A program made the position numbers and the translations under genes. Shown in pieces: positions 2,903 through 61,192 of a stretch of 64,000 nt of DNA (positions are counted from its first letter, which is position 1; each line of letters opens with the position of its first letter). Under the pieces are notes generated by a model. That model was given only the letters and a program-made list of their open reading frames with translations. It had not been told where the DNA came from and searched no databases. The DNA is from Acanthococcus lagerstroemiae (lineage: Eukaryota; Arthropoda; Insecta; Hemiptera; Eriococcidae), in NCBI GenBank assembly GCA_031841125.1, contig CM063109.1, positions 6,486,321 to 6,550,320 on the forward strand. The letters run 5' to 3'.

Positions 2903-2936
2903 CAAATACAGATTGGAACCTTATCCTTCAAGTTCT

Positions 2937-3258: not shown

Positions 3259-3261
3259 GGG

Positions 3262-35260: not shown

Positions 35261-35534
35261 GACTTTCATAGGATTTAAAATTAGGTACTTAAACATGTCT
35301 TCTCCTTTTATTGGAAAAACTGAAGTGCATTAATTTTCTATTCCAAACAGAGCAACAGAGATGACCTCCTCGTCAAGTTCTTGTATCTCCGTTCCCTTCA
35401 ATATTGTTGTGGCCTATCCTTAATGTACATACCTATATGTATAATTCTTTTTTATTTTTTTCAAGCATCTCTTTGCGAAAATAAAGAATCGTTTTGGTAC
35501 CACTCAAGTCCTAAAATCGACTTTGAATTATATG

Positions 35535-38967: not shown

Positions 38968-39159
38968 GAGTCGATCTCATTGTTGAAAAGATTCTCTAAT
39001 TCTGTGTTATTCGTAAGCCTAAAATTAGACGACGGATGTTCTCTCGTTGTGGGAGTCGAGGAAAAATTTTTATTGGAGCTAGAGTTTGGATTTGAATTGG
39101 GATTAGGACGATATTGTTTCGTCTTGCACTCGGATTCCGGGTCCTTTCGTAGGTGCATT
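38958..39159 (-). pseudogene. gag C-terminus of element 1 (downstream piece)
   Basis: Continues the gag frame after the 20.66 kb block: HLRKDPESECKTKQ supplies the last Cys of the zinc knuckle, then an Asn/Ser-rich tail ending DSKN and TAA. The last sense codons form the heptamer A_AAA_AAC at 38,967-38,961, a -1 frameshift site leading into pol. Confidence 0.85.
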
Positions 39160-40320
39160 TCGCCAGCCCCCCCAGGGTGGAGTTGGGGGTTGAAAATTTG
39201 CCCATCGTTTGTGCTTCGTTTGTGCTTCTTTGTGCTTCAACTTTCGTCGTTTGTGCTCCCCTCATTCAAAAGATATTAAAAAAACAAAAAGGGGGGGCTG
39301 GTGAAATGAGAGCCCCCCCAGGGTGGAGTTAGGGGTTGAAATTTTGTTCATCGTTTGTGCTTCGTTTGTGCTTCTTTGTGCTTCAAATTTCGTCGTTTGT
39401 GCTTCCCCCATTTCAAAGATATTCAAAAAATGAAAAGGGGGGCTGGCGAAATGAGAGCCCCCCAGGGTGGAGTTAGGGGTTGAAAATTTGTTCATCGATT
39501 GTGCTTCGTTTGTGCTTCTTTGTGCTTCAACTTTCGTCGTTTGTGCTCCCCTCATTCCGAGGATATTCAAAAAATAAAAAGGGGGGGCTGGCGAAATGAT
39601 TTCAACAAAGCTTGTTCTTAGTAAGGTGGAGACCTGAAAAATTGCCCATCGTTTGTGCTTCGTTTGTGCTTCTTTGTGCTTCAACTTTCGTCGTTTGTGC
39701 TCCCCCCATTCAAAAGATATTAAAAAAATAAAAGGGGGGCTGGTGAAATGAGAGCCCCCCAGGGTGGAGTTAGGGGTTGAAATTTTGTTCAACGTTTGTG
39801 CTTCATTTGTGCTTCATTTGTGCTTCTTTGTGCTTCAACTTTCATCGTTTGTGCTCCCCTCATCCCGAAGATATTCAAAAAATGAAAAGGGGGGCTGGCG
39901 AAATGATTTCAACGAAGCTTGTTCTTAGTAAGGTGGAGACCTGAAATTTTGCTCATCGTTTGTGCTTCGTTTGTGCTTCTTTGTGCTTCAACTTTTGTCG
40001 TTTGTGCTCCCCCCATTCAAAAGATATTAAAAAAACAAAAGGGGGCTGGTGAAATGAGAGCCCCCAGGGTGGAGTTAGGGGTTGAAATTTTGTTCATCGT
40101 TTGTGCGTCATTTGTGCTTCTTTGTGCTTCAACTTTCATCGTTTGTGCTCCCCTCATTCTGAAGATATTTAAAAAATGAAAAGGGGGGCTGTGGAAATGA
40201 TTTCAACAAAGCTTGTTCTTAGTAAGGTGGAGACCTGAAAATTTGCCCATCGTTTGTGCTTCGTTTGTGCTTCTTTGTGCTTCTTTGTGCTTCAACTTTC
40301 GTCGGTTGTGCTTGCTTCCT
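39160..40320 (+). repeat. Left arm: eight ~148-bp units, order A'-A-A-B-A-B-A-B
   Basis: Each unit shares TCGTTTGTGCTTC, TTTGTGCTTCAACTTTCGTC, an AAGATATTnAAAAA stretch and GGGGGGCTGG. Type A continues AGAGCCCCCCAGGGTGGAGT, type B ATTTCAACAAAGCTTGTTCT. Unit boundaries (GCGAAATG/GTGAAATG) fall near 39,301, 39,446, 39,591, 39,743, 39,897, 40,045 and 40,190. Long open frames here on both strands are by-products of the repeat. Confidence 0.9.
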
Positions 40321-40768
40321 CCTGGAAGTATTACATTAATAAATAAGAGGCAAGATAAAAATGAGTTATACCAAAAGGTATTAGGTGCAATCCTTGGTGG
40401 GAATGGGAATGGGGAGAAATGTAATTGTTTGTACGTCCTTGGACCTGATTTATACTTTCACCCTATTAATCACCACCCCCCCCCCCCTAGGTATTGACTA
40501 ATCAGGTAGGTAGATATAATCTTATCTTACTATATTATAAAATCGTAAGTTTCATAGACGCTCTATATGCGCATGTGCATGAACGACTCCTCCAGCTCGA
40601 GGGAAGAAGTCGTGTTTTACGTCACGTTCGTTCTCGAATCTCGATGTTCTACATAACACAAAGATGAAAAATAATGTCGCTCCGAACCAGTCCCTTCTAG
40701 GTACTTCACCGCTCACAAAAAATGTGTTGTTTAAAATTCGGAATTCTGCTTCATTATACCGTTTTGGC
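40321..40768 (+). repeat. Left arm: unique segment mirrored at 57,790-58,974
   Basis: GCTTCCTCCTGGAAGTATTA, the CTAGGTATTGACTAATCAGG stretch and the ATGCGCATGTGCATGAACGA region all recur inverted in the right arm. In the right arm a ~740-bp insert (58,015-58,755) splits the segment. Confidence 0.85.
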
Positions 40769-41640
40769 ATTCATCAATTTTAATAAGGCCTTTGATTCCA
40801 TTTATCAGTCACCGTAGCGCCTGGAATGCTCTAGCATCGCAAGGAGTTCCCGCAAAATATTATTAGAAAATTTATACCAAAACTCGGTAGCATATATTTC
40901 ACTGGACAAAAAAGGGGGATATATTTAAGGTGGGTAGGGGAGTCACATTCATCGATTTTAATAAGGCCTTTGATTTCATTTATCAGTCACTGTAGCGCCT
41001 GGAATGCTCTAGCATCGCAAGGAGTTCCCGAAAATATTATTAGAAAATTTATACCAAAACTCGGTAGCATATATTTCACTGGACAAAAAAGGGGGATATA
41101 TTTAAGGTGGGTAGGGGAGTCAAACAGGGAGATCCAGTGTCACAAAACATCTTTAATGCTGTACTGTGGAGGATCTTTTCAGAAAATTGGACTGGGATAG
41201 TTACGGGCTGAAGATAGATGGCGTGCAGATTAATAATCTCAGATTTGCCGATGACATCGTATTAATAGGTAAAAACAGTAAAGAAATAAATATAATGATA
41301 GAAGATTTGGCACAACAAGGGGCTAATGTAGGATTATCAATCAACCTGGGGAAATCCAAAATTATGACGAAAGATGGGAAAAAGGACAAATAGCTTTGAT
41401 CCAGCGCAGCAGAACTCGAGATGGTCGATGAATACAAGTACTTAGGACAAACTGTATCTTTCAAAAACAGAAGTAATAAGGAAATTAAAATTTGTATAAA
41501 TAACTCATGGAAAGCATGTTGGGAGACGACTTCAAGGAGCTGGGGAGAAGATGGATAAGATTGGCGAGAGACCGTGACATATGGAGAAAGATGGTGGAAA
41601 CCTATGCCCTCAAATGGGCAGGATAACTGGCATGGCCCAC
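40769..41640 (+). pseudogene. RTE-like LINE fragment with a 179-bp tandem duplication
   Basis: The RT palm reads IDFNKAF at the start, then KQGDPVS, then LRFADDIVLIG with the catalytic FADD at ~41,245. It ends with LGRRWIRLARDRDIW and ETYALKWAG, the usual C-terminus of RTE-like RTs. The first 175 bp are duplicated in tandem (40,769-40,943 and 40,948-41,122). About 300 bp of the region between are missing compared with the right-arm copy. Several stops; inactive. Confidence 0.8.
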
Positions 41641-41649
41641 CTATCCAAG

Positions 41650-41676
41650 GTTACATTATTATTATTATTGTCATTA

Positions 41677-41769
<93 letters not shown>

Positions 41770-41770
41770 T
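41650..41770 (+). repeat. (ATT)n tail of the left LINE fragment
   Basis: About 40 ATT/TTA triplets following the LINE C-terminus. Such short tandem tails are typical of RTE-type LINE ends. The right-arm copy has the complementary (TAA)n at 56,670-56,690, much shorter. The poly-Ile and poly-Leu frames through it are not proteins. Confidence 0.85.
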
Positions 41771-41861
41771 GACTACACCTATGCTGTCATTTTTGGTGAC
41801 TGTTTATTTTTTAATTGAAATCTTATGTGGGTCCACAGGGTATGTTTGCCGTAGGGGAAGA

Positions 41862-42095
41862 GGCTCAAGGTAATAGGTCCACTTTCATTGAGTAGACCGT
41901 AAAGAAACACATGTATGTGCTTTGTAATACAGTATAACAGAAAGATGTGCGCACTGAGACGAAATTAGGGGGCCCACAGTGTACCAAAGAACATTCAGAT
42001 GTAAATAGCCATCTTGTGGATGCCCCGTGTAATGAAAGCGAGGCCTCATTCAGAAAATAAATGTTTGTGTACGAAACCATAATACATTGCAAAGG
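41862..42095 (+). repeat. Inner inverted repeat, left copy
   Basis: GAGGCTCAAGGTAATAGGTC through CATTGCAAAGGA matches the reverse complement of 53,567-53,805 at roughly 85% by eye. Shared landmarks include ATGTATGTGCTTTGTAATAC and GGATGCCCCGTGTAATGAAA. Confidence 0.8.
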
Positions 42096-42119
42096 AATAG
42101 CTCATTTCAGCAATTTTAA

Positions 42120-45100
42120 ACATGTAACTAAAAAACGGAAGGTGCTCTCCACCCTAACACCGAAAATCTAATTCTCGATTTTTCGGCCTTGAAGAATATT
42201 TTTGATGACCTCTGTTAATTTTTGCAATTGGAATCTTTCGTGGGTCCAATTCCAGAAGTCTAATTCTCGAATTTGTGAACCTCTTAATTTGTTGATCGAA
42301 GTAATTTGTGGAACCTGGGGTAGACCTCCACCCTAACTCCAAAAATATAACATTCGATTCTTCAAACTTCTAAATTATTTTGTGAATCCGAGGAATGGAA
42401 CCCCACCCCCAACCCCGAAAATCGAATCCTCAATTTTTTGGCCTTTAGAAATCTTTTTAGTGACCTTTTCCGTTTTTCAGTTGTAATCATTTGTGGGGTC
42501 TAATGGTTGAGTCCCGATGAGCTGACCCCGCCCTCAACTCTGCAAATCAAACTCTCGATATTTCTGACGTGAAAAATGATTTTCGATTGTTGAAGTCTGT
42601 TGTGGTTCCGAGGGGTGGACCATCACCTCAACTCCGGAAGTCTAATTATCGATTTTTCAGGCTTGAACACTAATTTTCCGCGAACCCCTTATTTTGTTGA
42701 TCGAAGTATTTTGTGGATTCGACATGTGGACCCTCAACCTCAACTCCGAAAATCAAATTCTCGAATCTTCGGACTTCAATATTCATTTTTTGTGAACCTT
42801 TAATTTTTTTGAATAAAATCTATTGTGGACTTGAGGGGTGAAGCCCGTCCTGAACTCTGAAAATCTAATTCTCGATTCTTCAAATTTCTGAATTATTTTA
42901 CGCAAGCCTCCCCTTTTTTCAACTGATACATTTTCTACATGGGAAAAGTAGAGTCGCGCCCCCAACACCAAAAGAGTATATTTTCGAGTTTTCGTTGGTG
43001 AACTTTTTATTTATTTATTTATTGAAATACTTCGTGGATCCGTGGGGTAGACTATACCCCACCTCCGGAAATCAAATTCTCGATTATAGATGTTGAAAAA
43101 CAATTTTCCATAAACCCCTTATTTTTAATCGAGATCTTTTGTGGATCAAGGAATAACTCTCCCACCCACGACGAAAATAAAAAAAAAACTCGATTTTTCA
43201 GCTTCTCAAAGTTATTCTTGGAGAACGACTTATTTTTTAAATTCAAATAATACGTTAATCCTCTTCTAATAATTTACGTTTGTTTTAATAATAGTTTGAT
43301 TATAGCAGCAAGGCAATAACACTCTCAGTAAATAAAAATAATAATATAATATTGTGGACTCGATGGACTGTCTCCGCCCCCAACTCCGGAAATTGAATTC
43401 TTTATTTTATCGGCTTAAGAAATAATTTTCCGTGAGTCCATGCTTATTTCTTTTTTCGCAGTATTTTGTGGACCCGAGGACGAGTGATCCGCCGCCCACA
43501 ACTTCGAAAATCTAATTCTTGATTTTTCGATCGTCAGAAATATTTTTGGTGACCATTTTTGTATTTCAATTGGAATCGTTTATGGGGCCGAGGGGTCGAC
43601 CACACCCCCAACTTTGGAAGTCCAATTCTCGAATATTCAGGCTTTATAAATAATTTTCCGCGAACCTCTCATTTTGTTGATCGAAGCTTTTTGTGGATCA
43701 GACGGGTGTCCCCTCCCCATCACCAACCCCCAATCACAACAATATTATTTGCGATATTTTGACCTTTAAAAGTACGTATTGTTGCTATAATTTATTTTTC
43801 GGTCGAAATCTAATGTGGATTTGAGAGGTTAAACGCATCCCGAATTCCTGGAAATCTACCTCTCGATGCTTCAAACTTTGCAATTGTTTTTAACTTCTTT
43901 TTGCGATTGATACATTCTGTAGACTTAAAAAGTAGACCCCCCGTCCAAACCCTGAAAGTGTAATTATTGATTTTTCGGCCTTTAAAAAATTACTTTCGAT
44001 GAACTGTTCATGTTTTTTATAGGACCAAAGGATTGACACTGCTCCCAACTCCGGAAGTCTAATTCTTGATTCTTCAGTCTTCAACAATAGTTTTCTTTGG
44101 ACCCTTTACTTTGTTAATCGATATATTATATGGATCAGAGGGGAAGATTCCTCGCCCCCAACTCCGGTCATGAAATTCTTGTTTGGTAGGTATTGAAAGC
44201 TGATTTTCCATAACCCTTCTATTGTTCGATCGAAATCATATGTAGACCCAAGGGATAGACCCCCCCCCCCCGTTGCCTGCTAAAATATAAATCTCGATTT
44301 TCCGGGCTTTCAGATTTATTCTTGATGAAATTTTTATTTTTTCGATTCAAATCTATTGTGGTCCCGATGTGTTGACCCCACCTCCAACTCTGGAAATCAA
44401 ATTCTCGATTTTTCTGACGTGAAAGATAATTTTCGGCGATCCCCTTATTTTTCTGATCGAAGTCTTTGTTGGACCCGAGGAGTGGAATCCCACCCCAATT
44501 CCGAAAATCTAATTTTCGATTTTTTGCCCTTTAAAAATATTTTTCGCCTCTGGAAGTCTACTTCTCGATTTTTAAGTCTTGAACAATAATGTTCCGTGAA
44601 CCTCTGTTTCGTTGGTCGAAGTATTTTGTGGATCTGATAGGTAAACCTACACCCGCAACTCCGAAAGTCTAATTTTCGATTTTGAATTATTAAATATTTA
44701 TTTTTGTTTTTTTGATAAAATCTATTGCGGACTTGAGAGGTGGAGCCCATTCTGAACTCCGGAAATCTAATTCTCGATTTTTCAACGTCTGAATTATCTT
44801 TCTTAAACCTGCTCTCATTTCGATTGCCACATTTTGTAGACTCGAAAGGTGGATTCTTGCCCTCAACAATTCTTGATTTTTCGGCCTTTAAAATTATTTT
44901 TGATGAACTCTTCATTTCTCCGAGGGGTTGACCACACTCCCAACTTTGGACATTTGTCTCGATTTTTCAGGCTTGAACGACGATTGTCTGTGAACCTCTT
45001 GTTTTGTTAATCGAAGTGTTTTGTGGATCTGAGTTGTAAACCCTCACCCTAACCCCAGAAATCTAATTCTCGATTTTCAGCCTCTCAAATTTATTCCTGG

Positions 45101-46480
45101 TGATTGTTTATTTTTTCAATTGAAATCTTATGTGAGACCGAAGAGTTGACCCCACCCCAGACTTGGAAATTAAAATCTCGATTTTTCAGGCTTAAAAATC
45201 ATTTTTTGCTAAACTTATATTTATGTTGGATCAAAGTCTTTTATGGATCCAAGGGGTGGACCCCCACTTACACGCCGAAAATCTACAGGCTTGAAAAATT
45301 GTTTTCCGTAAAACCATAGTTGTTGCATTAAGCCTCCTGTGGACTCGAAGGGTGGTGCCCCCACCCACAAGTCCGAACATTCTAATTCACGAATTTTCGG
45401 CCTATAAAAATATTTTTGGTAACCTTTTTATTTTTTCAATTCGTAGATTTTTGGAGGCTGAGGAGTGCACCCCGCTCCCAATTCTGTAAGTGTAATTCAT
45501 GATTTTCTGTCTTGAACAATACTTTTCCGCGAACCCCTTATTTTGTCGATCTAACTACTTTGTGCATCTAAGGGGTGGACCCCACTCCCAACTCCGAAAA
45601 TCAAATTCTCGATTTTTTAGACTTGAAAAATAATTCTCCTTGAAACTCTTTTGTTCTGATCGGAAGTGTTTTGTGGACCCGAGGAGTAGAATTCTCAATT
45701 TTTCGGTCTTTAAAAATATTTTTGGAGACCTTTTTATTTTTTCAATTGGGATCTTTCGTGCAGCCGTTTATCTACTTTAAACATTATTTTTCGATAAATG
45801 TGACCGTCCAAATTAAAAGGGCACGTCGGTCCAAAACATTAATTTTACAGGAGACACTTAAAGATTCAAACGGGAATCTCGAGAACGCGATAGCCTATAG
45901 ACGTCCACTCTTGCGCTTTATCACTTTTGCTTTTTCGAGTTCAGAGACTCACAGTGTTAAACAGTACTCTTTGACCTACCAAAATCGAGCATAATCTCAA
46001 AGTCGATTTTTTTGGACCGAAGTGCCCTTTCAGTATGGACAGTCACAATTTTTTTTTTCATCTAATTGTTTTGGTGATCCGATGGTGGACCCCCGCCTCA
46101 GGCGTTGAAAATTTAATTCTCGATTCTTCAGAATTTAATGCTTATTCTTCGAGTAGTTTTTATTCTCACGATCTGAATCTTTTGTGGACTCGAGTGGTGA
46201 CCCATCTTTTTCCCGGTTGTTCGAATTTTGAAACTTATGTTTCATAAACTTGATTATTTGTTTCGATCGGTAGTTTTGTGAAGCCAAGAGATAGATTGTC
46301 GCCTCAGCTTTGAAAATTTAACTATCGATTTTTCGGATCTGGTTGAACTTTTTATTTTTCCTATTTCATCTTTCATGAGTTGGAGGGGTGTCCCCACCTC
46401 CAACTTCGAAAATCTGTTTTTCAATTTTCGAGACTTTATTGGTGACCCTCTGTGAATTGAAATCTCATGTGGATAAGTAA
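42120..46480 (+). repeat. 4.3 kb satellite of ~110-bp units
   Basis: About 39 diverged monomers share the order AACTCCGAAAATCTAATTCT, CGATTTTTCGGCCTT, AATTTTCCGTGAACCCCTTA, TTTTGTTGATCGAAGT, TTTTGTGGATCCGAGGGGTG, GACCCCACCCC. Spacing of the GAGGGGTGGAC block is 100-115 bp. The array is interrupted near 43,240-43,345 by an AT-rich insert and at 45,799-46,047 by a MITE. Frames through it have no stops for up to 156 codons but reflect the monomer. Confidence 0.85.
45799..46047 (+). mobile_element. MITE with ~38-bp inverted termini
   Basis: TGTGACCGTCCAAATTAAAA and then GGGCACGTCGGTCCAAAA on the left match the right end inverted with about six differences over 38 bp. It lies inside the ~110-bp satellite and breaks its phase. 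No clear target duplication. It may be Tc1/mariner-like, which is inference. Confidence 0.65.
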
Positions 46481-46489
46481 TTGAGCATC

Positions 46490-47381
46490 CCGGCGCAGTG
46501 AGTCCAGTATGAAAATCACAGGAAGGGTAAAGGGAGAAGAAGGCGGATTATCCCAGTCAGAAAGGAAGAGGACGCACGCCAGAAACTAAAATCAGTGCAA
46601 GAGGAAATGAAAGTCGAGGAAAATTTTTACGACAGTATGGATCAAGCTTTAAAAAACACGGTTGAAGAGTTTGGAGTGACGAGGGTTAAAGAGAAAACCA
46701 GGGATAAGCTTTCAAAATAGACTCTCGAATCAGGAAGAATAACCTTTGGAAAAATAGAAATAAAACACCATTGGACAAACCTGAGCGAACTAAAATACAA
46801 AAATTGGTGAAGAAAAATGTTAGAGAACATATTAAGAAATATGATTAGGAAAAAATTCCAGATATTTTGGAAGAAAGTTGGTCCACCAAAAAAGTTAGGC
46901 TCGAACTCGATGGCGGGAGAGACGTTATGCTGAAGCTAAAAGATCAGACAGGAAAAGTGACTAAGAATCAAGAACAAATTCTAGAGGCAGCAACAATTTT
47001 TTACGAGGACTTATACCGCGAGCAAAACGAGCTCATGAAAATAGCAAAAACTGGAGGGTGAAAGGAGGAAGAAATCCCGGAAATAATGGAGAGAGAAGTG
47101 GAATACGTACTAAATATGTAGACTGAAAAATGACATAGCCCCAGGACCGGATGGAATTACGAACGAAATGCTGAAAAGGCTTGACGATCAGAGAGTGTCA
47201 CACCAGGTTAAAATATTTAACAAAATCGGAATTATGAAAACATGACCAAAACAGTGGAACTTGGCCAAAATAATATTATTACACAAACAAGGAGGGAGGA
47301 ACTCATTGAAAATTACAGGCCAATATGCTTAACATCGAACATCTTTAAAGCACGTATGGCAGTCTTAAAAAGACGTATGTA
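46490..47381 (+). pseudogene. RTE-like LINE, 5' piece, interrupted by gypsy element 2
   Basis: Fragments in several frames: VMLKLKDQTGKVTKNQEQIL with EAATIFYEDLYRE upstream of the RT domain, then KNDIAPGPDGITNEMLK, the RT block following the thumb-side linker, then NLAKIILLHKQGGR and ENYRPICLTSNIFK, the canonical RPIsL block. The frame breaks exactly at RRMY, where the TGTA duplication of gypsy element 2 lies. It continues at 52,460. Multiple frameshifts predate or accompany decay. Confidence 0.8.
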
Positions 47382-47757
47382 TATAAGATCCGTAGGATCT
47401 CACTCGCGAAGAGCAAACGACGACAATCGTAAGAATGCATTTATTTTACAAAAACCAAACGAATTCGAAAACGAAGTCGTCGGGTGGAAACGTACAACAT
47501 TACATCGAGTGCAACATTACATCGAATGCCCGAAAACTGCATAATGGCAAAGTGTAAGCTTAGGCGAGAAAATTGGAATAATGAAATATGAAACGCGTGC
47601 TACGTTGCAACGTCATGTACACTGCTGAAATTGCTATTCTATTCGTGCCAGTGTGTGAGCGAGTGTACGGCAACACGAGAGCCAGCTAGGACAGGAAGAG
47701 CGGATAAATGTAGGGACAGGAAAAGACAAGATTACGAGAGAAGAGAGGAATCTTACA
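47382..47757 (-). repeat. 3' LTR of gypsy element 2
   Basis: Minus-strand start TGTAAGATTCC, end GGATCTTATA. The polypurine tract lies directly upstream of it (plus strand 47,758-47,772, CCCCCCTCCCCTC). No TG...CA symmetry; the TGTAA start is shared with element 1. Confidence 0.93.
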
Positions 47758-47799
47758 TCCCCCCTCCCCTCTCATTTAGGAGCGAAGAAAGCTCTTCAA

Positions 47800-50700
47800 C
47801 TAGGAAGTGACGGAGAAGGAGTTTGCTGGAGAAGGTAGCAGCTTACTGGCATGGTACAAGCGTTTTCCTAGCGGGCCGTTACTTACGGTGACTTCAAACA
47901 CGTTGTTTGAAACTTTACGAGTGATTCTGTGCGGGCCGATACGCAAGCTGTCGAGTTTGTTACGATTTAGTTTACTTCCATTGTCGAAGTAAACAATGTC
48001 TCCAACAGCAAAAGTTATGTCAGATTTACTCCGATCGTACAGTTCTTTGTTCCTTAGGTGGTATTTCATAGAATTATTATAAGCTAACTTTTGGTCTTCG
48101 ACAATATTGTTTGATGGGGAGAGGATGTCGGGGACAACTTTGATGGGAATGCCGGATAACAGGTACGAAGGAGGAAAACGTGTAACGGAATGTGGAGAGT
48201 CCTTATATTGGCGAACGCATTCGCTTGCAATCGCCGACCAACTCTTATGCAAGGGAGTGTTTTTGTCGTGCTTTACGCATCGTATGCGGTTAACCAACGT
48301 CTGATTAAGGCGTTCATTCAATCTGTTGGAGAACGCGCTGTCGACCGCCGTAAAAACGTGACGAATTCCTGAATGGGAGCAATATGATTCAAACTCATCA
48401 GAAGATAGTCCGCCATATTGATCGGTGAGAAGAATACCAATCTGGTTGTTCTTCTGCACTGAATCAACAAGTCTTGACAATATCTTTGCTGATTGTCCGT
48501 TGGAGCAGGAAATATAGGCGTAACGAGTAAAGTGATCAACAAGGATGTGCATATAACGTACAGAAGAACTGCCTGTGCCAAAACCACCAACGGTGTCTAA
48601 TGACATTACCTCAAACGGGGCGGACGCGGGTCCTAACATGCCCATTCGAGCGCTGCGCTGCGAGCGACGAGATTTATTCATTACACATACGGTACAAGAT
48701 GTACAGAATTTACGAATAAGCGAGTACATTTTCGGGAAGGTAAAATATCTCTTTACAATTGATATTACATGACTCGACCCTATGTGGCCGTATTTTGAGT
48801 GAACAATACGAATCAAGCTTATTCCTACTTGCGAGTCAAGTACAATTTTATCGGTACCATTAATGTTACGTACAATTACACCTTGTTTGGTCGAGTCCAA
48901 ACTTGACTTTACAATGTTCCGTTGCCCGTGCTTGATTTCGCCGAGGGAAAGAAAATTGAATGTCGGTAGCATCGGTTTGACAGGAGAGTTTTCGGGTTGG
49001 GGTTTGAGGACTGGGTTGCAGGAGAGACAATCGGCCTCGTGGTTTGATGTTCCAGGACGGTAAAGGATGGTGAAGTCGAACTGAAGGAGTTCGTTGGCAA
49101 GATCGCCAAGTTCCTCATCCGTTCGAGCTTTCAGATTCAGACCTTCGAGAGGTTTATGATCGGTGATAACTGTGAAATGGCGCCCGATTAGCCAAAAACG
49201 CCAGTAACGGTTTGCTTCGCGAACAGCGATACTTTCGATATAAATTGCCTTTTTCTTCTTTTGCGATTCTGACAGCTTTTTCGAGAAGTAGGCGACTGGT
49301 TTTTCAGTACCGTCCGACTGCGTCTGTTTTAGCACGGCGCCGATACCTATTCCGCTGGCATCAGTGTAAATAGTGACCGGCCCCGCACTATCAAAAACTG
49401 CCAGAACAGGAGCGGAAGTTAAAATTTTCTTTATTCTGTCGAAACTATTCTGACATGCGGCCGTCCAGGAAAAGGGTGTGTTTTTTCGGAGAAGGTTGTG
49501 GAAGGGTTCGAGAATGGAAACAGAATCTGGAATGAACTTTCGGTAGAAATTTACCTTGCCGAGAAATTGACGGATGTTTTTCCTGGAGGATGGAGTTGGG
49601 AATTCATTGATAGCTACTAGGTTATCCTGGAGAGGTTTGACGGTGTTGGGTCCCAGGATGTGACCCAAGTACTGGATTGAGGAAGCGGCAAAAGTGCACT
49701 TTTTGAAATTGAGGTGGAAACCCTCTTTAAAGACGGCGGTAATTACTTGGTGCACGTGTACGACGTGTTCCTCAAACGTACGAGAGAATATCAAAATGTC
49801 ATCAAGGTAGTTTGTAGCAAACTTTAATAACTTATATTCTTTAATGATACCCGACAGAATGCGCTGAAAGACGGCTGGGGCAGTCTTGAGTCCGAATGCC
49901 ATACGGCGCCACTCATAGTGTCCGTGCCGGGTAACAAAGGCCGATTTGGGTCTATCTTCCTCACAGATTGGGATAGACCAAAATGCCGCATTGATATCCA
50001 GCGCCGAAAACCATGAGCAACCTTGCGTCTGTGTCAGAATTTCATCAATTAGTGGGAAAGGCTGGCTTTCCGGGGTAATTAATTTATTCAGGTCGCGATA
50101 ATCAATGCACATGCGGGTTTTCTTTTTGGATCCCGTCAAGCCGTCTTTCTTAAACTGCATTGTGACGGGCGATGCAAAAGGTGATTTTGATTCTGTAATC
50201 ATGCCATGCTTTAAGAGCTCATTACATTGCCGTTCGATTTTGGCTTGGTCATCAAAGGAGCAGCGGTAAGGTTTTTTTGCTACATAAACATTCTTAGTAA
50301 GGTTGATGGAACAGTCATACTTTGTTACGTTGCCAACATCAAATGGATGTTTGGCAAAGACGTGAGAGTTCTCGTAAATAAGATGGCAAATCGAATTCTT
50401 TACATTACCTTTAAGGTGCGAGACTTTATCAAGAAACAGTTCCTTACTGAAGAAATTGCTCCATACCGAAGTGTTGTTAATTGCAACTGTCGGCGGAACT
50501 TTCATACGGGGAGCTAGAGGAGCTTGCGTAAGCTTGAGCTCATGGTCAAGAGCCAAACGGAATAGAGGTATAAGATCAAGAGCAATCAAAAAATCGAAGT
50601 GAAATGCGCTTGAATCCAGGACGTACAGGAGTACTCTTTTGCTAATGTTCAGAATTTTTATGTCAAGCACTGTGACACCCGCAATAAGGCCCGGTTCGTT

Positions 50701-50868: not shown

Positions 50869-51986
50869 TGAATTTGCTGTATTTCGTCTTGTAGGTCCTG
50901 GAGGTCAAATGAGTGCACGCCTTTTGGGGCCAGAGAATTTACATTGCTACTATTTGAAGTCCTGAACTTCGCGTCGCGCGCTTTTGTCAAACAGTCTTTC
51001 TCAAAATGAAAGCGTTCAAATCCCTTCCGTTTACAGTACGGACATGGGGTTTTTGAATGGGGCGTAGAGCCAGACTGCGATGAAGAAGACGGAGCAGACA
51101 AAGCGGCCGGGGTACGGATATTCTCGAAGGAATTGATAGTAGCAAGAAGCTTACCAAGCGATGACATCTCTGACCAGTTTATACGATCTTGGTAATGGCG
51201 AGGCAGACCCATGGCCAGATGAGCCATTTTATCAAAGTCCAACATTTTGGGGTGGAATGCGGCAAGCAGACTAAGCTTCCGTTGAGCGTAATCGGAGATG
51301 GAGCCAGAGACGTACTTGTAATAGAATGCTGAATGGACGGCGGCTAATCCTCGAGTTCCAAAGTGTTCGAGGAACGTCTCTCTCCAGAGGGACCATGCTG
51401 TCGAGTCTGAGGTCAGGCGAGTGGTAGTGTACCACTCTTGTGCGCTATCCTCCAGAAAGAGATGGATTGCCTCCCATAAACGGTCCTCCTCAATTAGCAG
51501 ACAGCGACACTCGGCCTCAAACATCTCAATCCATGCGTTTGCGTTTGAGCAGGAGCCTTTTGAGCCGAACTTTGGGATAACAGCATCCTTGACGATGGAA
51601 ACAAGTGAGCGGGCCTTTGGGGGCGAGTCTTGGTTTGCAGTGACGGGAGTGGTTGCGACGGAAGGGGTATCAGCGGCCTCACTGAGGAGAGTCCCGTTAA
51701 AAACGGGGTTCTCATCCACATCGAAGTATGTTGCAAGGAGAGCGTCTGTGAGCATGGTTTTAAATGACTTCGTTGCCCAGCGAGGAGCCAATCCTTTCTT
51801 CGCCATCTTTGCAATGGGAAGAGTCATTAGAGCATCGTGAAGACGGAGGTCACGGAGTTCCGGAGGGAACTCGTAGATGGTATTATCATCCAAAAGATGG
51901 ATCGACACCAGATTCTGTACAGTGGTGCGCGGATCGGCGGCCGAAGGCTCTGCACGCATTGTGAACTTCACTCGAATGGAAGACAT
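50856..51986 (-). CDS. gag of gypsy element 2 (376 aa)
   Basis: Starts at ATG (MSSIRVKFTMRAEPSAADPR) ~100 bp after the 5' LTR. It has a capsid-like helical core (SNANAWIEMFEAECRCLL, ALFLEDSAQEW-type segment, ETFLEHFGTRGL) and a CCHC-like knuckle C-PYC-KRKGFERFHFEKDC near residue 315. It ends QQIQKNE-TAA. The last codons contain A_AAA_AAC (50,868-50,862), so a -1 ribosomal shift would yield Gag-Pol. It aligns along its length with the broken gag of element 1. Confidence 0.9.
   Translation of the reverse strand: MSSIRVKFTMRAEPSAADPRTTVQNLVSIHLLDDNTIYEFPPELRDLRLHDALMTLPIAKMAKKGLAPRWATKSFKTMLTDALLATYFDVDENPVFNGTLLSEAADTPSVATTPVTANQDSPPKARSLVSIVKDAVIPKFGSKGSCSNANAWIEMFEAECRCLLIEEDRLWEAIHLFLEDSAQEWYTTTRLTSDSTAWSLWRETFLEHFGTRGLAAVHSAFYYKYVSGSISDYAQRKLSLLAAFHPKMLDFDKMAHLAMGLPRHYQDRINWSEMSSLGKLLATINSFENIRTPAALSAPSSSSQSGSTPHSKTPCPYCKRKGFERFHFEKDCLTKARDAKFRTSNSSNVNSLAPKGVHSFDLQDLQDEIQQIQKNE
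50862..50868 (-). promoter_or_regulatory. -1 frameshift heptamer A_AAA_AAC (element 2)
   Basis: In gag frame the codons are CAA AAA AAC GAA TAA. Sliding back one base at A_AAA_AAC enters the pol frame, which is open from this point. The heptamer is one of the strongest eukaryotic -1 slippery sites. I did not establish a downstream stem-loop. Confidence 0.8.
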
Positions 51987-52072
51987 AGTTGAAAAACTGA
52001 AGAACGTGTAAAAACGGCGCGGAAAGCGGAAATGACGTGTAAAAACGGCGCGAAAAGCGGAGATGACGAAAA

Positions 52073-52083
52073 GTTTTCGAATT
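52073..52083 (-). promoter_or_regulatory. Putative self-priming site of element 2
   Basis: The 11 bases adjoining the 5' LTR (AATTCGAAAAC on the minus strand) are the exact complement of GTTTTCGAATT inside the LTR (52,174-52,164), 80 bases upstream of the LTR end. No tRNA-like TGG start is present at the usual primer site. Element 1 has a 10-base equivalent. Confidence 0.55.
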
Positions 52084-52459
52084 TATAAGATCCGTAGGAT
52101 CTCACTCGCGAAGAGCAAACGACGACAATCGTAAGAATGCATTTATTTTACAAAAACCAAACGAATTCGAAAACGAAGTCGTCGGGTGGAAACGTACAAC
52201 ATTACATCGAGTGCAACATTACATCGAATGCCCGAAAACTGCATAATGGCAAAGTGTAAGCTTAGGCGAGAAAATCGGAATAATGAAATATGAAACGCGT
52301 GCTACGTTGCAACGTCATGTACACTGCTGAAATTGCTATTCTATTCGTGCCAGTGTGTGAGCGAGTGTACGGCAACACGAGAGCCAGCTAGGACAGGAAG
52401 AGCGGATAAATGTAGGGACAGGAAAAGACAAGATTACGAGAGAAGAGAGGAATCTTACA
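52084..52459 (-). repeat. 5' LTR of gypsy element 2
   Basis: Identical to the 3' LTR except for one C/T difference. On the minus strand a AATAAA (AAAATAAATGC) lies 10-20 bases after the self-complementary GTTTTCGAATT, compatible with a short R region. Confidence 0.93.
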
Positions 52460-53545
52460 TGTATAACTATCTGGATTCAAATCATCCGGGGAGTGAACAG
52501 GCGAGATTCAGAAAAGGCTTCTCAACTGTAAAGAATATTTTCGTTGTGAGCCAAATTATTGAAAAAACACACGAATATGATGTAGAAATTGAAATATTTT
52601 GCATAGGCTTTCATGAGACAGTTGATTCAGTGGATCATAAGTATATGTTAAAAGTACTGGAAAATAAGGGAATTGAAAGTGGGTTTATTAAAGTCATATA
52701 CAGAATTACTATGCAAATTCAAGTGCAAGAGCTAGCCTTAAAAGCAAAGGGAGGGAATTCAAAATTGGGAGCGGAGTTCAGCAAGGGGATACCTTGTCGC
52801 CAAACCTCTTCAACTGCATTTTGGAAGATGTATTTCGCAATCTGAAGTGGAAAAAAAGGGGACTAAAAATAAATGGAGAATTTCTAAGTAATTTAAGGTA
52901 CGCAAACTATATTATCTTATTTACAGAAAATAGTAAGGAGTTGAAGAAAATGGCAGAAAAGCTATTGAGGGAATGCAAAAAAAGCTGGCCTCAAACTGAA
53001 TGGTAGCAAATCAAAAATAATCGGAAGAGTGGAAAGAAAAAATCTAATAATCGATGAGCAAGAGATAGAAGAGGTAACAGAATCGAATATCTGTGGGACA
53101 GATTATTAGTTTCGAAGAAAGAGATAAAGGAATTATGAGGGCGTATTAAACAGGGGTGGAACAACCTCTGGGCATTAAAATGTATTTTTTGCCGGAATTT
53201 CAACACCTTCCTCAAAATGGAAACACTAAATAGCTCAACGGTACCAGCCCTCAAGTATGGAGTACAAACCTGGTCCCTTACAGGAGACAAATCGTGAAGC
53301 TACAAATTACGTTCAGATCTATGTTGAGGAAACTTCCAGGACTACGATGGGTAGACAAAATCTCAAATGAAAAACTGTACGAAATGGCTGGAGGCGAGGA
53401 TATAGGATATAATGTCGAACAATTTAAGTGGAAATATGTGGGGCATCTGGCGAGGGCAGATAGCAACAAATAGGGAGTAAAAGTACTCAACTATGGATAC
53501 GCTGCAAAGAAAAAGAACGATAGGTAGGCCAGTAACTTGAAAACC
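52460..53545 (+). pseudogene. RTE-like LINE, 3' piece after gypsy element 2
   Basis: Resumes YNYLDSN, then ARFRKGFSTVKNIFVVSQII (RT fingers), a palm block FHETVDSVDHKYML, GIPCRQTSSTAFWKM in place of GxxQGdxLSP, LRYANYIILF in place of the FADD motif and the ALKYGVQTWSLT thumb block. A frame-shifted C-terminal region (GGEDIGYNVEQFKWKYVGHL) follows. The catalytic YxDD/FADD aspartates are mutated to AN, so the LINE was dead. It ends near 53,545 before the inner inverted repeat. Confidence 0.75.
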
Positions 53546-53566
53546 TGCTGAAATCAACTACTCCTT

Positions 53567-53805
53567 TGCAATGCATTATGGTTTCAAACACAAATATTTA
53601 TTTTCTGAATGAAGCCTCGCTTTCATTACACGGGGCATCCAGAAGATGCTACTTACATCTGAAGGTTCTTTGGTACACTGTGAGCCTCCTAATTTTGTCA
53701 CAGTGCATACATCTTTATGTTTGTACTGTATTACAAAGCACATACATGTATTTTTTACAGTCTACTCAATGAAAGTGGACCTATCACCTTGAGCCTCTTC
53801 CAGGG
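53567..53805 (-). repeat. Inner inverted repeat, right copy
   Basis: Reverse complement of 41,862-42,095. Together they enclose the satellite, the broken LINE and gypsy element 2. Confidence 0.8.
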
Positions 53806-54149
53806 GCGGATAAGTCATAGGGCGATTCGGGCAAATGCCCGGTGCGCCGCCGCCTGCATTTATAAAATACTTACAAAAATGAAATAAGCGTATGTTGCGA
53901 CGACAGTCGAAAAACGTGCGGCGGCGCTGATCAATTTAGAGAGAAATAATGAGATTGAAAAATTTTAATGGGCAGACACATTTTGCGCCGTTTGTCGACC
54001 AAACGTGTGCGTGTGTGTGAGTACCTCCGCCCATTTTTGGGCATACGCCTCCACGTAGCTTTTCCAATTTTTTTTATCCTGCGCTTATCTTTGCCACCCA
54101 GGGCCCCAGTTCTCTGACGAGAACGTGGAACTGAAAGACGGAAGCTATT
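53806..54149. other. Non-coding, with a hAT-like MITE end
   Basis: Starts with CAGGGGCGGATAAGTCATAG followed by GGGCAAATGCCCGG, the usual 5' end of a hAT-like MITE. The right end is not recognisable; at ~54,120 the satellite copy begins. Confidence 0.4.
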
Positions 54150-54880
54150 GTGGACTTGAGGGGTGAAGCCCGCCCTGAACTCTGGAAATCTAATTCTCGA
54201 TTCTTCAAATTTCTGAATTCTTTTACGTAAACCTCCCCTTTTTTCAACTGCTACATTTTGTACACTGGAAACGTGGACTCGCGCCCCCAACACCAAAAGA
54301 GTATACTTTCGAGTTTTTGTTGGTGAACTTTATTTTTCTTGATTGAAATAATTTGTGATTCCGAGGGGTTGACCGCACCCCAACTCCGATAATCAGATTC
54401 TTGATTGTAGATGTTGAAAAACAATTTTCCATAAGCCCCTTATTTTTAATCGAGATCTTTTGTGGATCAAGTAATAACTCTCCCACCTACGACGAAAATC
54501 TAAAACTCGATTTTCCAGCATCTCAATGTTATTCTTGGTGAACGTCTTACTTTTTCAATTTAAATAATACATTAACCCTCTTCTAATAATTTACGTTTGT
54601 TTTAATAATAGTTAGATTATAGCAGCAAAAGGCAATAACACTCTCAGTAAATAAAAATAATAATATAATATTGTGAACCCGATGGATTGTCTCCACCCCA
54701 ATTCCGCAAATCTAATTCTCGATCTTTCAGCCTCTCAAGATTATTCATGGTTAATTTTTTTCGATTCTGATCTATTGTGGATCTGTTGGGTTGACCCCGA
54801 CCCCAACTTCGGAAATTGAATTCTCCATTTGGTCGGCTTAAGAAATAATTTTCCGTGAGCCCCTGTTTATTTTTTTGTTC
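54150..54880 (+). repeat. Direct duplicate of satellite segment 42,830-43,440
   Basis: Same monomer order as 42,830-43,440, including the unusual AT-rich insert with TAATTTACGTTTGTTTTAAT and the CTCTCAGTAAATAAAAATAA block. It is on the same strand as the main array although it lies in the mirrored half of the block. Confidence 0.85.
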
Positions 54881-55254
54881 GAAGTCTTTTAAAGAGTCAT
54901 AAGGTATATCAGAACAGTGAAATTTGTAGCCGTAATAGTATTTAACTCACAAATCATTGATTTATGTAGTATTTTTATGTTCTTGAATTTCTCTCTAGGG
55001 ACCATAACTAGAAATTTCAGAAGGGAACGTATACTCAGAAGTCCGAAAAATCGTAAAAAATGGTTACTCGATCGATAATGAATTAAAATGGAGTAAAGCC
55101 TAAACAAAATTCAATTTTTTGCATGTAATAGGGTATATTTTCTATATTGTTTTTCATATGTAAAGTAGATAAACTGACTTCTGAATAATATTAATACATT
55201 TGTTATGACATAACCTGTCATATTTAAAATCCATAACTAGAACTGCGCATGTAG
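54881..55254. other. AT-rich non-coding stretch
   Basis: I see nothing supportable in it. Confidence 0.4.
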
Positions 55255-55980
55255 AAAAATGAAGTTTCCCGCTCAAGAACCCTTCCCCTCAAGACCCCCT
55301 CCACGGGACAAGAACCTTCCGCACCATGGCCTTCATTCGCCTTCCCGGCCGCCTCTCTCACCAAGAACTTCCTCCTCCACCAGGACCCTTTCCTCAATAT
55401 TACCCCCTCCCCACTCGGGGTCTTTACGCTCCTCTACAGTCACCTCCACCATCGTGGTTTTCCTCCCCTTTAGGAGCTGCCTCCTCTACCATGAGAGTAC
55501 CTCTTACATCCCCGGGCCTTTATCTACCGAAATTTTACTGCCCCTCTAGGATCCTCACCCACCACTACTTCCTCCTTCCTCAATTGCCACCCTCTCCTAC
55601 TTAGGATTTCCTCCACCACAAGGACCTCGCACCCACCACTACTTCCTGTGCTTCATCTCCTTTCAGAGCCCCTGTCCTCACTATGGCCCTCCAACCCCCT
55701 TGAAGATCCCTGACCACACCCAGGAGCTCTCACAACCATGACCACTCCTCCCCCGAGAGCCCTTCCCCCTCAAGACCCTACCCCGCCACCAACCCCTCCT
55801 GCACAACGGCCATTTCTCTCCGAGGTCCCCTCTCTCACCAAGGACTTTCTCCTCCACCAGGTCCTCTTACTCCCACCCCACCCAGAGACTTCATCTCCGT
55901 CCACAGCCCACGTCCCCACAGGGGCCCTCTTTCCCCTTTAGGAGCTGCCTTCTCAACCATGAGCCCCCTCCTGAGGGTCG
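55255..55980 (+). repeat. Pyrimidine-rich degenerate repeat
   Basis: About 725 bp that are strongly C/T-rich on the plus strand (CCTCCTCCACCAGGACCC, CCCTCAAGACCCT, TTTCCCCTTTAGGAGCTGCC recurring). Loose repetition with period about 30-70 bp. Pro/Ser/Leu-rich frames in all three phases result from composition, not from a gene. Confidence 0.55.
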
Positions 55981-56039
55981 GCTACCCCTGGAAAATTGAG
56001 CAATCAAGGGGTAGGGTAGGCAACCTGCAGCGACTTGTG

Positions 56040-56640
56040 ATCTTGAAAATTATGAGTAATTATGTCATTTTATGTCTTTTTATGTCGGTTATGTCTTACA
56101 ACTTGGAGATCTTATATGTCAGAACAGATTATGTCCTTAAAAGTAGCTGATCTGCCCCTGCAATTTTTCGGGTTCTTAAGTAGGCAACCCGCAGTGTGTT
56201 TTTTTTTCTCCCGGAGGCAGTGGCGGTGGCGGATTTTACTTTTTTCGTATCTTTTATGTTAGAACAGATTATGTCCTTAAAAGTAGCTGATCTGCCCCTG
56301 CAATTTTTCTGGTTCTTGAGATAGAGAGATGTCTTTTTTTATGTCTTATCATGTCGGTTACGTATGTCTTAAAACTTGGAGATCTTTTATGTTAGAACAG
56401 ATTATGTCCTTAAAAGTAGCTGATCTGCCCCTGCAATTTTTCTGGTTCTTGAGATAGAGAGATGTCTTTTTTTATGTCTTATTATGTCGGTTACGTATGT
56501 CTTAAAACTTGGAGATCTTTTATGTTAGAATAGATTATGTCCTTGAAAGTAGCTGATCTGCCCCTGCAATTTTTCAGAATTTTAGATAGTCAACCCGCAG
56601 TGCGTTTTCTTCCCATGGAGGCGGCGGCGGCGGCGGTGGC
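56040..56640 (+). repeat. Tandem ~134-bp repeat, about four units
   Basis: AGAACAGATTATGTCCTTAA and AAGTAGCTGATCTGCCCCTG recur at ~56,113, 56,258, 56,394 and 56,528. Intervening parts are TTTTTATGTCTTATnATGTCGG and AACTTGGAGATCTTnTATGT. Two units carry a (GGC)n/(GGT)n cluster (56,215 and 56,618). Confidence 0.8.
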
Positions 56641-56699
56641 GGCGAATTTTACTTTTTTAGTATATAGAGAGATAATAATAATAATAAATAAAAAAACTA

Positions 56700-57790
56700 G
56701 GGTTTTGGGTAGGTGAGCCATGCCAGTTACCCCGCCCATGTGAGGGCATAGGTTTCCACCATCTCTCTCCATATGTCACGGTCTCTCGCCAATCTTATCC
56801 ATCTTCTCCCAAGCTCCTTAAAGTCGTCTCTCCAGCGTAGCATCCGTCGTCCCCTTGCACGTTTATGGGCATATGGGGTCCAGTCGGTTGCAGTCTTATG
56901 CCATTTGAAGTTCTTTTCCATCATCAGGTGCCTCGCGTATTTCAATTTTAATTTTCTGATCATGTAGCCAATATCCTTTACATTAATTCTTTCTTTGATG
57001 TCCAGAAACTTATTTTTGTCTTTAAGTTTGATTTTTAGGATGCTCCTAAACATTGAATTTGGCATAACTTTTAACTTCTTTAAATGTCTTCTAGCTATTG
57101 GCCACATCTGGGCCCCATGTGTTGCCACTGGGAGCACACAAGTACTTACGATTCTTACTTTTGTTTTAATTTTCATGTTGCTTTTAAAAATATGTTTTGT
57201 GCCCAACATGCTTTCCATGAGTTATTTATACAAATTTTAATTTCCTTATTACTTCTGTTTTTGAAAGATACAGTTTGTCCTAAGTACTTGTATTCATCGA
57301 CCATCTCGAGTTCTGCTGCGCTGGATCAAAGCTATTTGTCCTTTTTCCCATCTTTCGTCATAATTTTGGATTTCCCCAGGTTGATTGATAATCCTACATT
57401 AGCCCCTTGTTGTGCCAAATCTTCTATCATTATATTTACCTCTTCACTGTTTTTACCTATTGATACGATGTCATCGGCAAATCTGAGATTATTAATCTGC
57501 ACCCCATCTATCTTCAGCCCGTAATTATGCTACTCCAATTTTCTGAAAAGATCCTCCAGTACGGCATTAAAGATGTTTGGTGACACTGGATCTCCCTGTT
57601 TGACTCCCCTACCCACCTTAAATGTATACCATTTTTTGTCCAGTGAAATATACGCTACCGAGTTTTGGTATAAATTTTCTAGTATGGTTATTGTATTTTC
57701 GGGAACTCCTTTTGCGATGCTAGAGCATTCCAGGCGCTACGGTGACTGATATAGGGAATCAAAGGCCTTATTAAAATCGATGAATGCCGA
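56700..57790 (-). pseudogene. RTE-like LINE fragment, right-arm copy
   Basis: Mirror of the left-arm fragment and more complete. On the minus strand: FIDFNKAFDSLYQS near 57,780, GDPVSPNIFNAVLEDLFRKL, LRFADDIVSIG, then an uninterrupted C-terminal 163 codons (57,218-56,727) with VRIVSTCVLPVATHGAQMWP, a KYARHLMMEKNFKWHKTATD stretch and the WRDDFKELGRRW...ETYALTWAG end. It is followed by (TAA)n at 56,670-56,690. A stop separates the palm from the C-terminus. Confidence 0.8.
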
Positions 57791-58014
57791 AACGGTATAA
57801 TGAAGCAGAATTCCGAATTTTAAACAATACATTTTTTTTGAGCGGATGAAGTATAGAAGGAACTGGTTCGGAGCGACGTTATTTTTCATCTTTGTGTTAT
57901 GTAGAACATCGAGATTCGAGAAGGAACGCGATGTAAAACACGACTTCTTTCCTCGAGCTGGAGGAGTCATTCATGCACATGCGCATATAGAGAGTCGAAG
58001 TAACTTACAATTTT
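57791..58014 (-). repeat. Right arm: unique segment, inner part
   Basis: Reverse complement of 40,553-40,775 with scattered differences and small indels (for example GAGCGGATGAAGTATAGAAGG against a shorter left-arm version). Confidence 0.8.
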
Positions 58015-58755
58015 AATCAAAACAAATTTTTGATGAGAAATCATTTATAGGTACATTGGAATACCTAATCGAATTAAATTTTCAATATGATTTGATATAC
58101 CAATTCATATGAGAACCAATATCGACACATATACTTAATTTCTCTTCTGGGGTACCCCAGTATCAAAACAACGAAAAAATTTAAAGCAAGTATGCCAAGG
58201 ATCTGTCAAAAATTTTGTTGTTACTTGATTATAATATTTAGCGATGTCGCTCGTCAGGCCTGATGTGATAGGCACGAAAATTAAATACATAAATATAAAA
58301 ATACATCTAACTTCTTAACCTTCTAAGGTTCTTATGGTTTGTAAGCACGTTGGTAAATACCTATGAGCGAGGATGACGAGGGGGGAAGAATAAGTAATAA
58401 GTTTATATAAATGCCCGAGAAGTATGGTACTGTAGGACAGGCTATTATTCAAATATGAAGAAGAAATTAGAAAAAAGTGAAAACGTAGCCCGCTGGCTAC
58501 ATACTTCAGGATTGTACATACGAAGTTTCAAAGAAATAAATTGAAAATTGTAGGAGAAAACAGGTGGCGCGTAATGGTAGTCCGCTGACATTTTCACCAA
58601 AAAAGATACCTGATTGCAAAATACATTTCCAAATCAATGGAGAAGTTTCAAACAGTTGTTTTGAACGTATAATATTTATAATAAGTTTTATTTAAATGAA
58701 ACTTCGTTTTTCTTTATTTTTTTGAAAATTTTATATGAAAAATATCAGGAATTTG
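58015..58755. other. ~740-bp insert present only in the right arm
   Basis: Splits the mirrored segment at a position where the left arm has only ~25 bp (ATAATCTTATCTTACTATAT). AT-rich, no recognisable gene, termini or target duplication. It could be an insertion in the right arm or a deletion in the left. Confidence 0.6.
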
Positions 58756-58974
58756 GATTGAAAATTTATATTATATTATATCTACCTAACTGATTAGTCA
58801 ATACCTAGGGGGGCGGGGCGGTGATTAATAGGGTGAAAGTATAAATCAGGTCCAAGGACGTGCAAACAATTACATTTCTCCCCATTCCCATTCCCACCAA
58901 GGATTACACCTAATACCTTTTGGTATAACTCATTTCTATCTTGCCTCTTGTTTATTAATGTAATACTTCCAGGA
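58756..58974 (-). repeat. Right arm: unique segment, outer part
   Basis: Reverse complement of 40,321-40,530, including ACCTAGGGGGG next to GATTAATAGGGTGAAAGT. Confidence 0.85.
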
Positions 58975-59820
58975 GGAAGCAAGCACAAACGACGAAAGTT
59001 GAAGCACAAAGAAGCACAAACGAAGCACAAACGATGAGCAAATTTTCAGGTCTCCACCTTACTAAGAACAAGCTTTGTTGAAATCATTTCGCCAGCCCCC
59101 CTTTTCATTTTTTGAATATCTTCGGGATGAGGGGAGCACAAACGATGAAAGTTGAAGCACAAAGAAGCACAAATGAAGCACAAACGTTGAACAAAATTTC
59201 AACCCCTAACTCCACCCTGGGGGCTCTCATTTCACCAGCCCCCCTTTTATTTTTTTAATATCTTTTGAATGGGGGGAGCACAAACGACGAAAGTTGAAGC
59301 ACAAAGAAGCACAAACGAAGCACAAACGATGGGCAATTTTTCAGGTCTCCACCTTACTAAGAACAAGCTTTGTTGAAATCATTTCGCCAGCCCCCCCTTT
59401 TTATTTTTTGAATATCCTCGGAATGAGGGGAGCACAAACGACGAAAGTTGAAGCACAAAGAAGCACAAACAAAGCACAATCGATGAACAAATTTTCAACC
59501 CCTAACTCCACCCTGGGGGGGCTCTCATTTCGCCAGCCCCCCCTTTTCATTTTTTGAATATCTTTGGAATGGGGGAAGCACAAACGACGAAATTTGAAGC
59601 ACAAAGAAGCACAAACGAAGAACAAAATTTCAACCCCCAACTCCACTCTGGGGGGGCTCTCATTTCACCAGCCCCCCCCCTTTTTGTTTTTTTAATATCT
59701 TTTGAATGAGGGGAGCACAAACGACGAAAGTTGAAGCACAAAGAAGCACAAACGAAGCACAAACGATGGGCAAATTTTCAACCCCCAACTCCACCCTGGG
59801 GGGGCTGGCGAAATGCACCT
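58975..59820 (-). repeat. Right arm: six ~148-bp units, order A'-A-A-B-A-B from outside
   Basis: Mirrors the left arm unit by unit but lacks the last A-B pair. The outermost unit ends GGGGGGGCTGGCGA, followed by AATGCACCT, an inverted copy of the 9 bases at the left junction (AGGTGCATT). Confidence 0.9.
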
Positions 59821-60903: not shown

Positions 60904-61188
60904 TCTAAGACGAAATTATCTTTCGAAAACTTTATTCGTAAACGATGCAAAATAATACAGAGAATCGAAAACGAAAGTCGAATTACAGGCGTAAAGAACG
61001 TGGGACGTAAGCACGAAATGTGTAACGCATGATCGAAAAGAAGTATCGATACTAAATTGATATTATAGATGGCGAGGGAACTGAGAAAGACAGATACACC
61101 AGGTGAAAACGTGCGTAGCTGATAAGCAGGATTGAACATGATTAGTGAGAGAGTGTGAGTCGGGCGGAGTAACGGTTTTCGCATTACA
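60904..61188 (-). repeat. 5' LTR of gypsy element 1
   Basis: 285 bp; matches the 3' LTR except for one substitution (GTATCGA versus GTATGGA) and a 10-bp stretch GTGGGACGTA absent from the left copy. Confidence 0.92.
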
Positions 61189-61192
61189 TATG

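Follow-up and report, generated by a model that had tools for sequence, protein, structure and literature searches.

The window, the 64,000-nucleotide stretch of DNA analysed here, is part of contig 4 of the Acanthococcus lagerstroemiae genome (658 Mb, 438 contigs). It contains a gypsy-type retrotransposon whose gag gene is split by a block of 20,670 bp with long inverted arms, and this block, a probable foldback transposon with a composite core, is the subject of our analysis. The features of the locus are listed below (LINE, long interspersed nuclear element; LTR, long terminal repeat; TSD, target site duplication).

35535-61188, minus strand: host gypsy element, delimited by LTR alignment, domains and ends; its gag is split by the block
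39142-39150, plus strand: left 9-bp target copy TCCTTTCGT, with two changes relative to the empty-site 9-mer
39151-59820, no strand assigned: foldback unit of 20,670 bp, with inverted termini AGGTGCATTTCGCCAGCC and 147-bp exact inverted ends
39151-41686, plus strand: left arm, with tandem array (39151-40312), mirrored unique DNA to about 40520 and mirrored LINE fragment (40538-41686)
42150-46220, no strand assigned: degenerate satellite of direct repeats with 60-90% identity
45571-55259, no strand assigned: core stretch with satellite and LINE, partly matching a unit on C5 (L091, see below); RVT_1 of the LINE at 52692-53003
47382-52459, minus strand: core gypsy-type LTR retrotransposon, TSD TGTA at 47378-47381 and 52460-52463
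55276-56674, no strand assigned: middle domain with 133-bp repeats, parts of which also adjoin the exact terminus C1:57749441 (L078)
56672-59820, minus strand: right arm, with mirrored LINE fragment (56672-58015), segment 58016-58774, mirrored unique DNA and tandem array (58982-59820)
59821-59829, plus strand: right 9-bp target copy TGCATTCGT, identical to the empty sites

The host gypsy element is bounded by LTRs at about 35535-35809 and 60904-61188, which differ by one substitution and one 10-bp indel over an alignment of about 270 bp, and by the TSD TATG (35531-35534 and 61189-61192); RVT_1, RNase H and integrase zinc domains were found within it. Once the block is removed, the gag frame is open across the join. 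Seven homologous gag proteins were found; five of them (P0001-P0004 and P0007) extend as far as the zinc knuckle, and each of these has the spacing C-x2-C-x9-H-x4-C, which is also the spacing given by a model with a 9-bp duplication.

The outermost 147 bp of the two arms, from 39151 and to 59820, are 100% complementary, and AGGTGCATT lies inside this exact inverted repeat and so belongs to the element. The preliminary description of this DNA had begun the unit at 39160 and bounded it by a 6-bp direct repeat, TGCATT, whose removal together with the block was said to restore the zinc-knuckle frame of gag exactly. The exact inverted repeat instead starts at 39151 and the duplication is of 9 bp; the ends shared with other units include AGGTGCATT, and the empty sites have a single TGCATTCGT. 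The frame does stay open after the cut proposed earlier, but four extra codons then remain, the 12 extra bp in the zinc knuckle being made up of 3 bp of the end and 9 bp of the duplication. The 9-mers that flank the block, TCCTTTCGT and TGCATTCGT, match at 7 of 9 positions. Among lengths of 2-14 only a length of 9 stands out; when host 9-mer pairs were drawn at random 200,000 times, a match of at least 7/9 arose in 396 draws.

A search with the gag site gave 13 matches including the window itself, eight of which do not extend over the site. Three uninterrupted gag copies (L010, L011 and L012) hold one TGCATTCGT between both flanks, with no AGG; one further match (L013, 93%) lacked the exact probe word and was left out of the alignment. 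Because the three copies carry a single TGCATTCGT, the right 9-mer is, on this comparison, the original and the left 9-mer the one that was changed, at two positions. Empty sites of the kind that had been suggested as a check are thus present three times in the same genome, and the insertion of a foldback-type element into gag is borne out by these copies and by the occurrence of the same ends, with 9-mers, elsewhere. A target duplication of about 9 bp, a foldback trait, is indicated by the three empty sites and by 18 end pairs described below, for which 9 was the best of the lengths 5-10.

The arms are about 2.5 kb (left) and 3.1 kb (right) long and show another foldback trait, long inverted ends of tandem sub-repeats, with the units spaced 141-163 bp. 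As previously described, they consist of tandem units, mirrored unique DNA and a mirrored LINE fragment. Segment 58016-58774 of the right arm has no counterpart in the left arm. In the left LINE fragment, 177 bp are duplicated in tandem, and about 370 bp of LINE present on the right are missing. The arms had been considered more diverged from each other than the host LTRs are; this holds for the inner LINE parts, with 21/575 and 15/228 substitutions, but not for the outer 820 bp, which are 0.7% diverged (6/822 differences). A run of 220 bp identical between the arms adjoins the diverged LINE parts. It is likely that the arms exchange sequence by conversion, such that the outer arrays stay alike and the inner parts keep older differences. 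Searches with the arm pattern gave no match in viral_contigs and none in genome_contigs.

The search for other arm-bounded units that had been proposed yielded three sister units, at C1:83743326-83755091 (11,766 bp), C15:375709-390582 (14,874 bp) and C5:64292631-64307397 (14,767 bp). Their arms and the core parts compared are 96-100% identical to the block, and each has its own 9-mers. The C15 and C5 sisters are in opposite orientation, with arm matches of 96.2-97.5% over about 1.5 kb per end, and each of them contains LINE core, as seen over about 700 bp. The C1 sister aligns to the block at 39151-44542 and 54142-59820 (22 substitutions over 5,690 columns in the right part), about 0.4 kb of satellite resembling 44361-44810 of the block taking the place of about 9 kb. 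A genome search with the core piece 54500-55240 (741 bp), for which 40 of 855 candidates were scored and 41 rows returned, gave four rows at 99-100%, 36 at 97% and one at 83%; the four best all fall within units that have exact termini and exceed 10 kb, of which there are four, on C4 (the window), C1, C15 and C5. The two LINE parts contain 36 sites that differ between the left and right arm of the block, 34 of which differ in the same way in the C1 sister; for the unique part the figure is 3 of 4. Because the C1 sister carries the same arm differences, the palindrome with its unequal arms likely predates both the window and the C1 insertions, and the outer arrays have probably been evened out by conversion. 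The earlier proposal that the palindrome preceded its entry into gag and moved as one block is upheld by these common arm differences and by the core piece in the sisters.

The core was said to hold a satellite, a LINE and a complete LTR element, and we observed all three. The LTRs of the core retrotransposon are 377 bp long and have one difference. At the exact position of its insertion the C15 and C5 sisters (L109 and L110) have a single TGTA. Because neither of the two sisters possessing the site carries this retrotransposon, it is, as judged from the copies checked, a later arrival private to the window copy, and its presence aboard the moving unit, as originally envisaged, is not sustained. 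The block without it measures 15,588 bp, near the 14,874 and 14,767 bp of the sisters. Since the sister copies are without the LTR element, the unit that entered gag more likely measured about 15.6 kb. Further parts of the core (45571-46220, 46877-47383 and 52459-55259) match C5:56591405-56598012 (L091) at 95.9-97.1%; this is a complete 6.6-kb unit with ends of the AGGTCC type and a 9/9 duplication. Once the gypsy element is discounted, 9.9 kb of core are left, of which the match covers about 4 kb; part of the core is, by this likeness, middle sequence from a second foldback family. A 258-bp inverted repeat, 90% identical, flanks the core at 41856-42112 and 53546-53801 and is also matched in L091.

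The 20-base end of the block was found at 244 + 236 places in the genome with up to two mismatches, and the reversed pattern at 0 + 0. Sixteen places match exactly, and 12 of these make six outward pairs. We picked 28 candidate pairs by eye among the places listed (100 of 166 and 100 of 480). The flanking 9-mers match at 6 or more of 9 positions in 19 of the 28 (nine at 9/9, five at 8/9, three at 7/9 and two at 6/9), compared with 28/756 when left and right flanks were re-paired as a control. One of the 19, C2:58467550-58469111, was dropped as a simple unit for having flanks mirrored over about 229 bp, leaving 18 pairs with direct 9-mers; C1:57706750-57749441 and an inner alternative on C3 were rejected as not being pairs. 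Eight of the 28 candidates sit in longer palindromes. A variable middle between common ends, again as in foldback elements, was found in these 18 of 28 pairs, whose lengths run from 1.3 to 24.2 kb. Short members measure 1.3-3.2 kb, and perfect 9/9 duplications occur in units of up to 15.2 kb (C1:46815560) and 24.2 kb (C3:23324308). The latter unit (C3:23324308-23348488; L084, L085) is of the AGGTCC type and carries another terminus-like motif within its right end; another AGGTCC-type unit, C2:12486161-12509824 (L079, L080), is 23.7 kb long with an 8/9 duplication.

We consider it very probable that the block is an apparently non-autonomous foldback transposon, of which a composite of about 15.6 kb entered gag by one cut-and-paste event, the predicted transposase being of the MULE (Mutator-like element)/Foldback type. 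This type of cut-and-paste is inferred because of the nine-base duplications and the long repetitive inverted ends. The insertion is apparently recent and the element large and chimeric; its kind is known (FB, Galileo, Ising TE), and its size and composition are unusual. In the proposed sequence of events, an element with AGGTGC-type ends would have acquired the middle of an AGGTCC-type element, either by insertion with loss of the arms or through ectopic exchange as in Galileo (PMC3573991); the resulting chimera, about 15 kb long, would then have spread as one unit. The unit of about 15.6 kb would have jumped into the gypsy gag by a single cut-and-paste event, duplicating 9 bp, with a MULE/Foldback-type transposase encoded elsewhere in the genome acting in trans, as suggested by Tm1 (PMC3169594), Tetris (PMC4079207) and a table of MULEs (PMC6446971). 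Conversion between the arms would keep the outer arrays alike, and the gypsy element in the core of the window copy would have entered later.

Several observations weigh against this interpretation. A domain scan of 17 open reading frame (ORF) products of the block, made up of 15 of its 57 ORFs of at least 70 amino acids and the two ORFs of the core gypsy element, found no transposase; above threshold there were retroelement domains only, and one further match fell below it. The MULE domain PF10551, through which we looked for an autonomous partner without finding one, is abundant in the genome, with at least 150 matches scored among 773 candidates, and none of the 97 matches checked of the 150 listed lies within the 28 candidate intervals. 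The block's own duplication is matched at only 7 of 9 positions. Differences between the arms in the outer arrays are common to the C1 sister at only 2 of 6 sites, the C1 arms being equal at the other four, and the interiors of the 14.8- and 14.9-kb sisters were compared over a small part only. A count by eye assigns 61 of the 84 listed one-mismatch ends to the AGGTGCATG type. Each of the seven AGGTGCATG pairs examined has mirrored flanks, which places the motif within a longer palindrome rather than at a terminus. In one AGGTGCATG pair, L060/L061 (C1:13850368 and C1:13860480), the mirrored sequence extends about 730 bp beyond the motif.

Other histories of the locus can be set against a single entry of the composite. 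The core might have been swapped after insertion by ectopic gene conversion, a shorter relative like the 11.8-kb C1 form having entered gag. Passages on Galileo describe copies with their own ends and a foreign middle that are explained by exchange (PMC3573991), and arm conversion is suggested here by the 220 identical bp beside the diverged LINE parts and by the outer arrays. The two further sisters, however, carry the LINE core where it was read, and the block and the AGGTCC-type element are continuous across 54142, whereas the C1 form jumps from satellite like that at 44361-44810 to sequence corresponding to 54142 and beyond. Because the block and the AGGTCC-type element run through 54142 and the C1 form does not, the latter seems to have arisen by deletion between satellite repeats, and we regard a swap of the core as unlikely. 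Accretion of the core in place, after a small foldback element had entered gag, would fit with the short members of 1.3-3.2 kb and with the later, copy-specific insertion of the core gypsy element; it is highly improbable given the core piece at 99-100% in three other arm-bounded units, the LINE core of about 700 bp in two sisters and the arm differences common to the C1 unit.

Near-identical arms 20 kb apart carry the classic risk of collapse, and the block could in principle be an assembly artefact in which two foldback copies were misjoined. There is no N in the window, the flanking 9-mers are identical (one) and 7/9 identical (the other) to the empty site, and the same structure occurs at other loci with different flanks; a misjoin is therefore extremely unlikely. 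We attach next to no probability to the arrangement originally proposed, a unit of 39160-59820 with a TGCATT duplication and the young LTR element already aboard. TGCATT is indeed present at both 39154 and 59821, and this cut does leave an open frame, but the exact inverted repeat extends to 39151, AGGTGCATT is in the shared end of other units, the empty sites show TGCATTCGT without AGG, four extra codons are left and the sisters are without the LTR element.

We also compared the target duplications of the four composite units, which have 2, 2, 2 and 1 mismatches of 9, or 7/36 in total; fewer than one in 36 would be expected at the 0.4-1.2% divergence of the parts compared. For the window copy, the next difference from the empty-site copies on the left lies 43, 90 or 188 bp away, depending on the copy, so that the two new bases of the left 9-mer adjoin a flank in which at least 42 bases are unchanged. 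This suggests that errors were made at insertion, empty sites being known for the window copy only. Exchange between copies, as in the Galileo chimeras, could also give unequal flanks. Tentatively, the two-family chimera may now be a mobile unit of its own, of about 15 kb, that makes faulty target duplications at birth. If this is true, the faulty duplications would mean error-prone gap repair when very long palindromes integrate.

Polinton/Maverick elements have a 6-bp duplication, polymerase B and integrase. A Polinton (about 20 kb, 6-bp duplication) was considered and rejected based on the 9-bp duplication and on the 17 ORF products, which included no polymerase B and only the integrase domains of the core gypsy element. 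Membership in the Galileo/P superfamily was likewise rejected, the duplication being 9 bp rather than 7 and no P transposase domain being found in the same products.

The closest likenesses, as given in passages of the papers cited, are to other foldback systems. Drosophila FB and Tetris have long internally repetitive inverted arms and a variable non-coding middle like the block, and Tetris of D. virilis makes duplications of 8-10 bp; the likeness is structural, the block being much larger (20.7 kb) with arms of 2.5-3.1 kb that include mirrored non-repeat DNA and LINE (PMC4079207). Tm1, a Mutator/Foldback element of Meloidogyne, shares composite inverted ends with tandem motifs and mostly 9-bp duplications, and one copy has a nested insertion, but a complete example is 1,080 bp long and the passages on it describe no giant chimeras (PMC3169594). 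The foldback-like arms of Drosophila Galileo grow by recruitment and tandem expansion, and its chimeras include ends of one subfamily with the middle of another and others with non-matching flanks; in contrast to the block, Galileo is of the P superfamily, with 7-bp duplications and, in the account given, longest arms of 1.26 kb (PMC3573991). The Ising transposable element (TE) of D. melanogaster is also a case of large DNA mobilised by foldback ends. There, hundreds of kb lie between two independent foldback transposons, whereas here the two ends are the arms of one and the same palindrome, and the arm-bounded unit, about 12-21 kb long, is found at four loci (PMC6431247). Rehavkus and other MULEs resemble the block in the 9-bp duplication, in minisatellite near or in the ends (Rehavkus) and in their arthropod hosts; the complete arthropod MULEs described there are 1.9-10.0 kb long with a transposase, Rehavkus-1_TC measuring 9.5 kb (PMC6446971, PMC13359780, PMC10218199). 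In the block, by contrast, the scan of 17 ORF products revealed no transposase.

The empty sites, the sisters in both orientations and the common arm asymmetry together provide fairly direct evidence that a palindrome of about 15 kb is able to transpose whole in an animal genome. The block shows satellites, LINEs and other elements carried inside foldback arms, and the set of insertions allows integration errors to be measured.

Outside the host element, an open frame at 61764-61926, at the right edge of the window, resembles a first coding exon, presumably of a regucalcin/SMP-30-like gene. The first third of the window contains diverged repeats (about 80%) at 2935-3258 and 4959-5272, which are inverted, and at 3256-3824 and 20707-21314.

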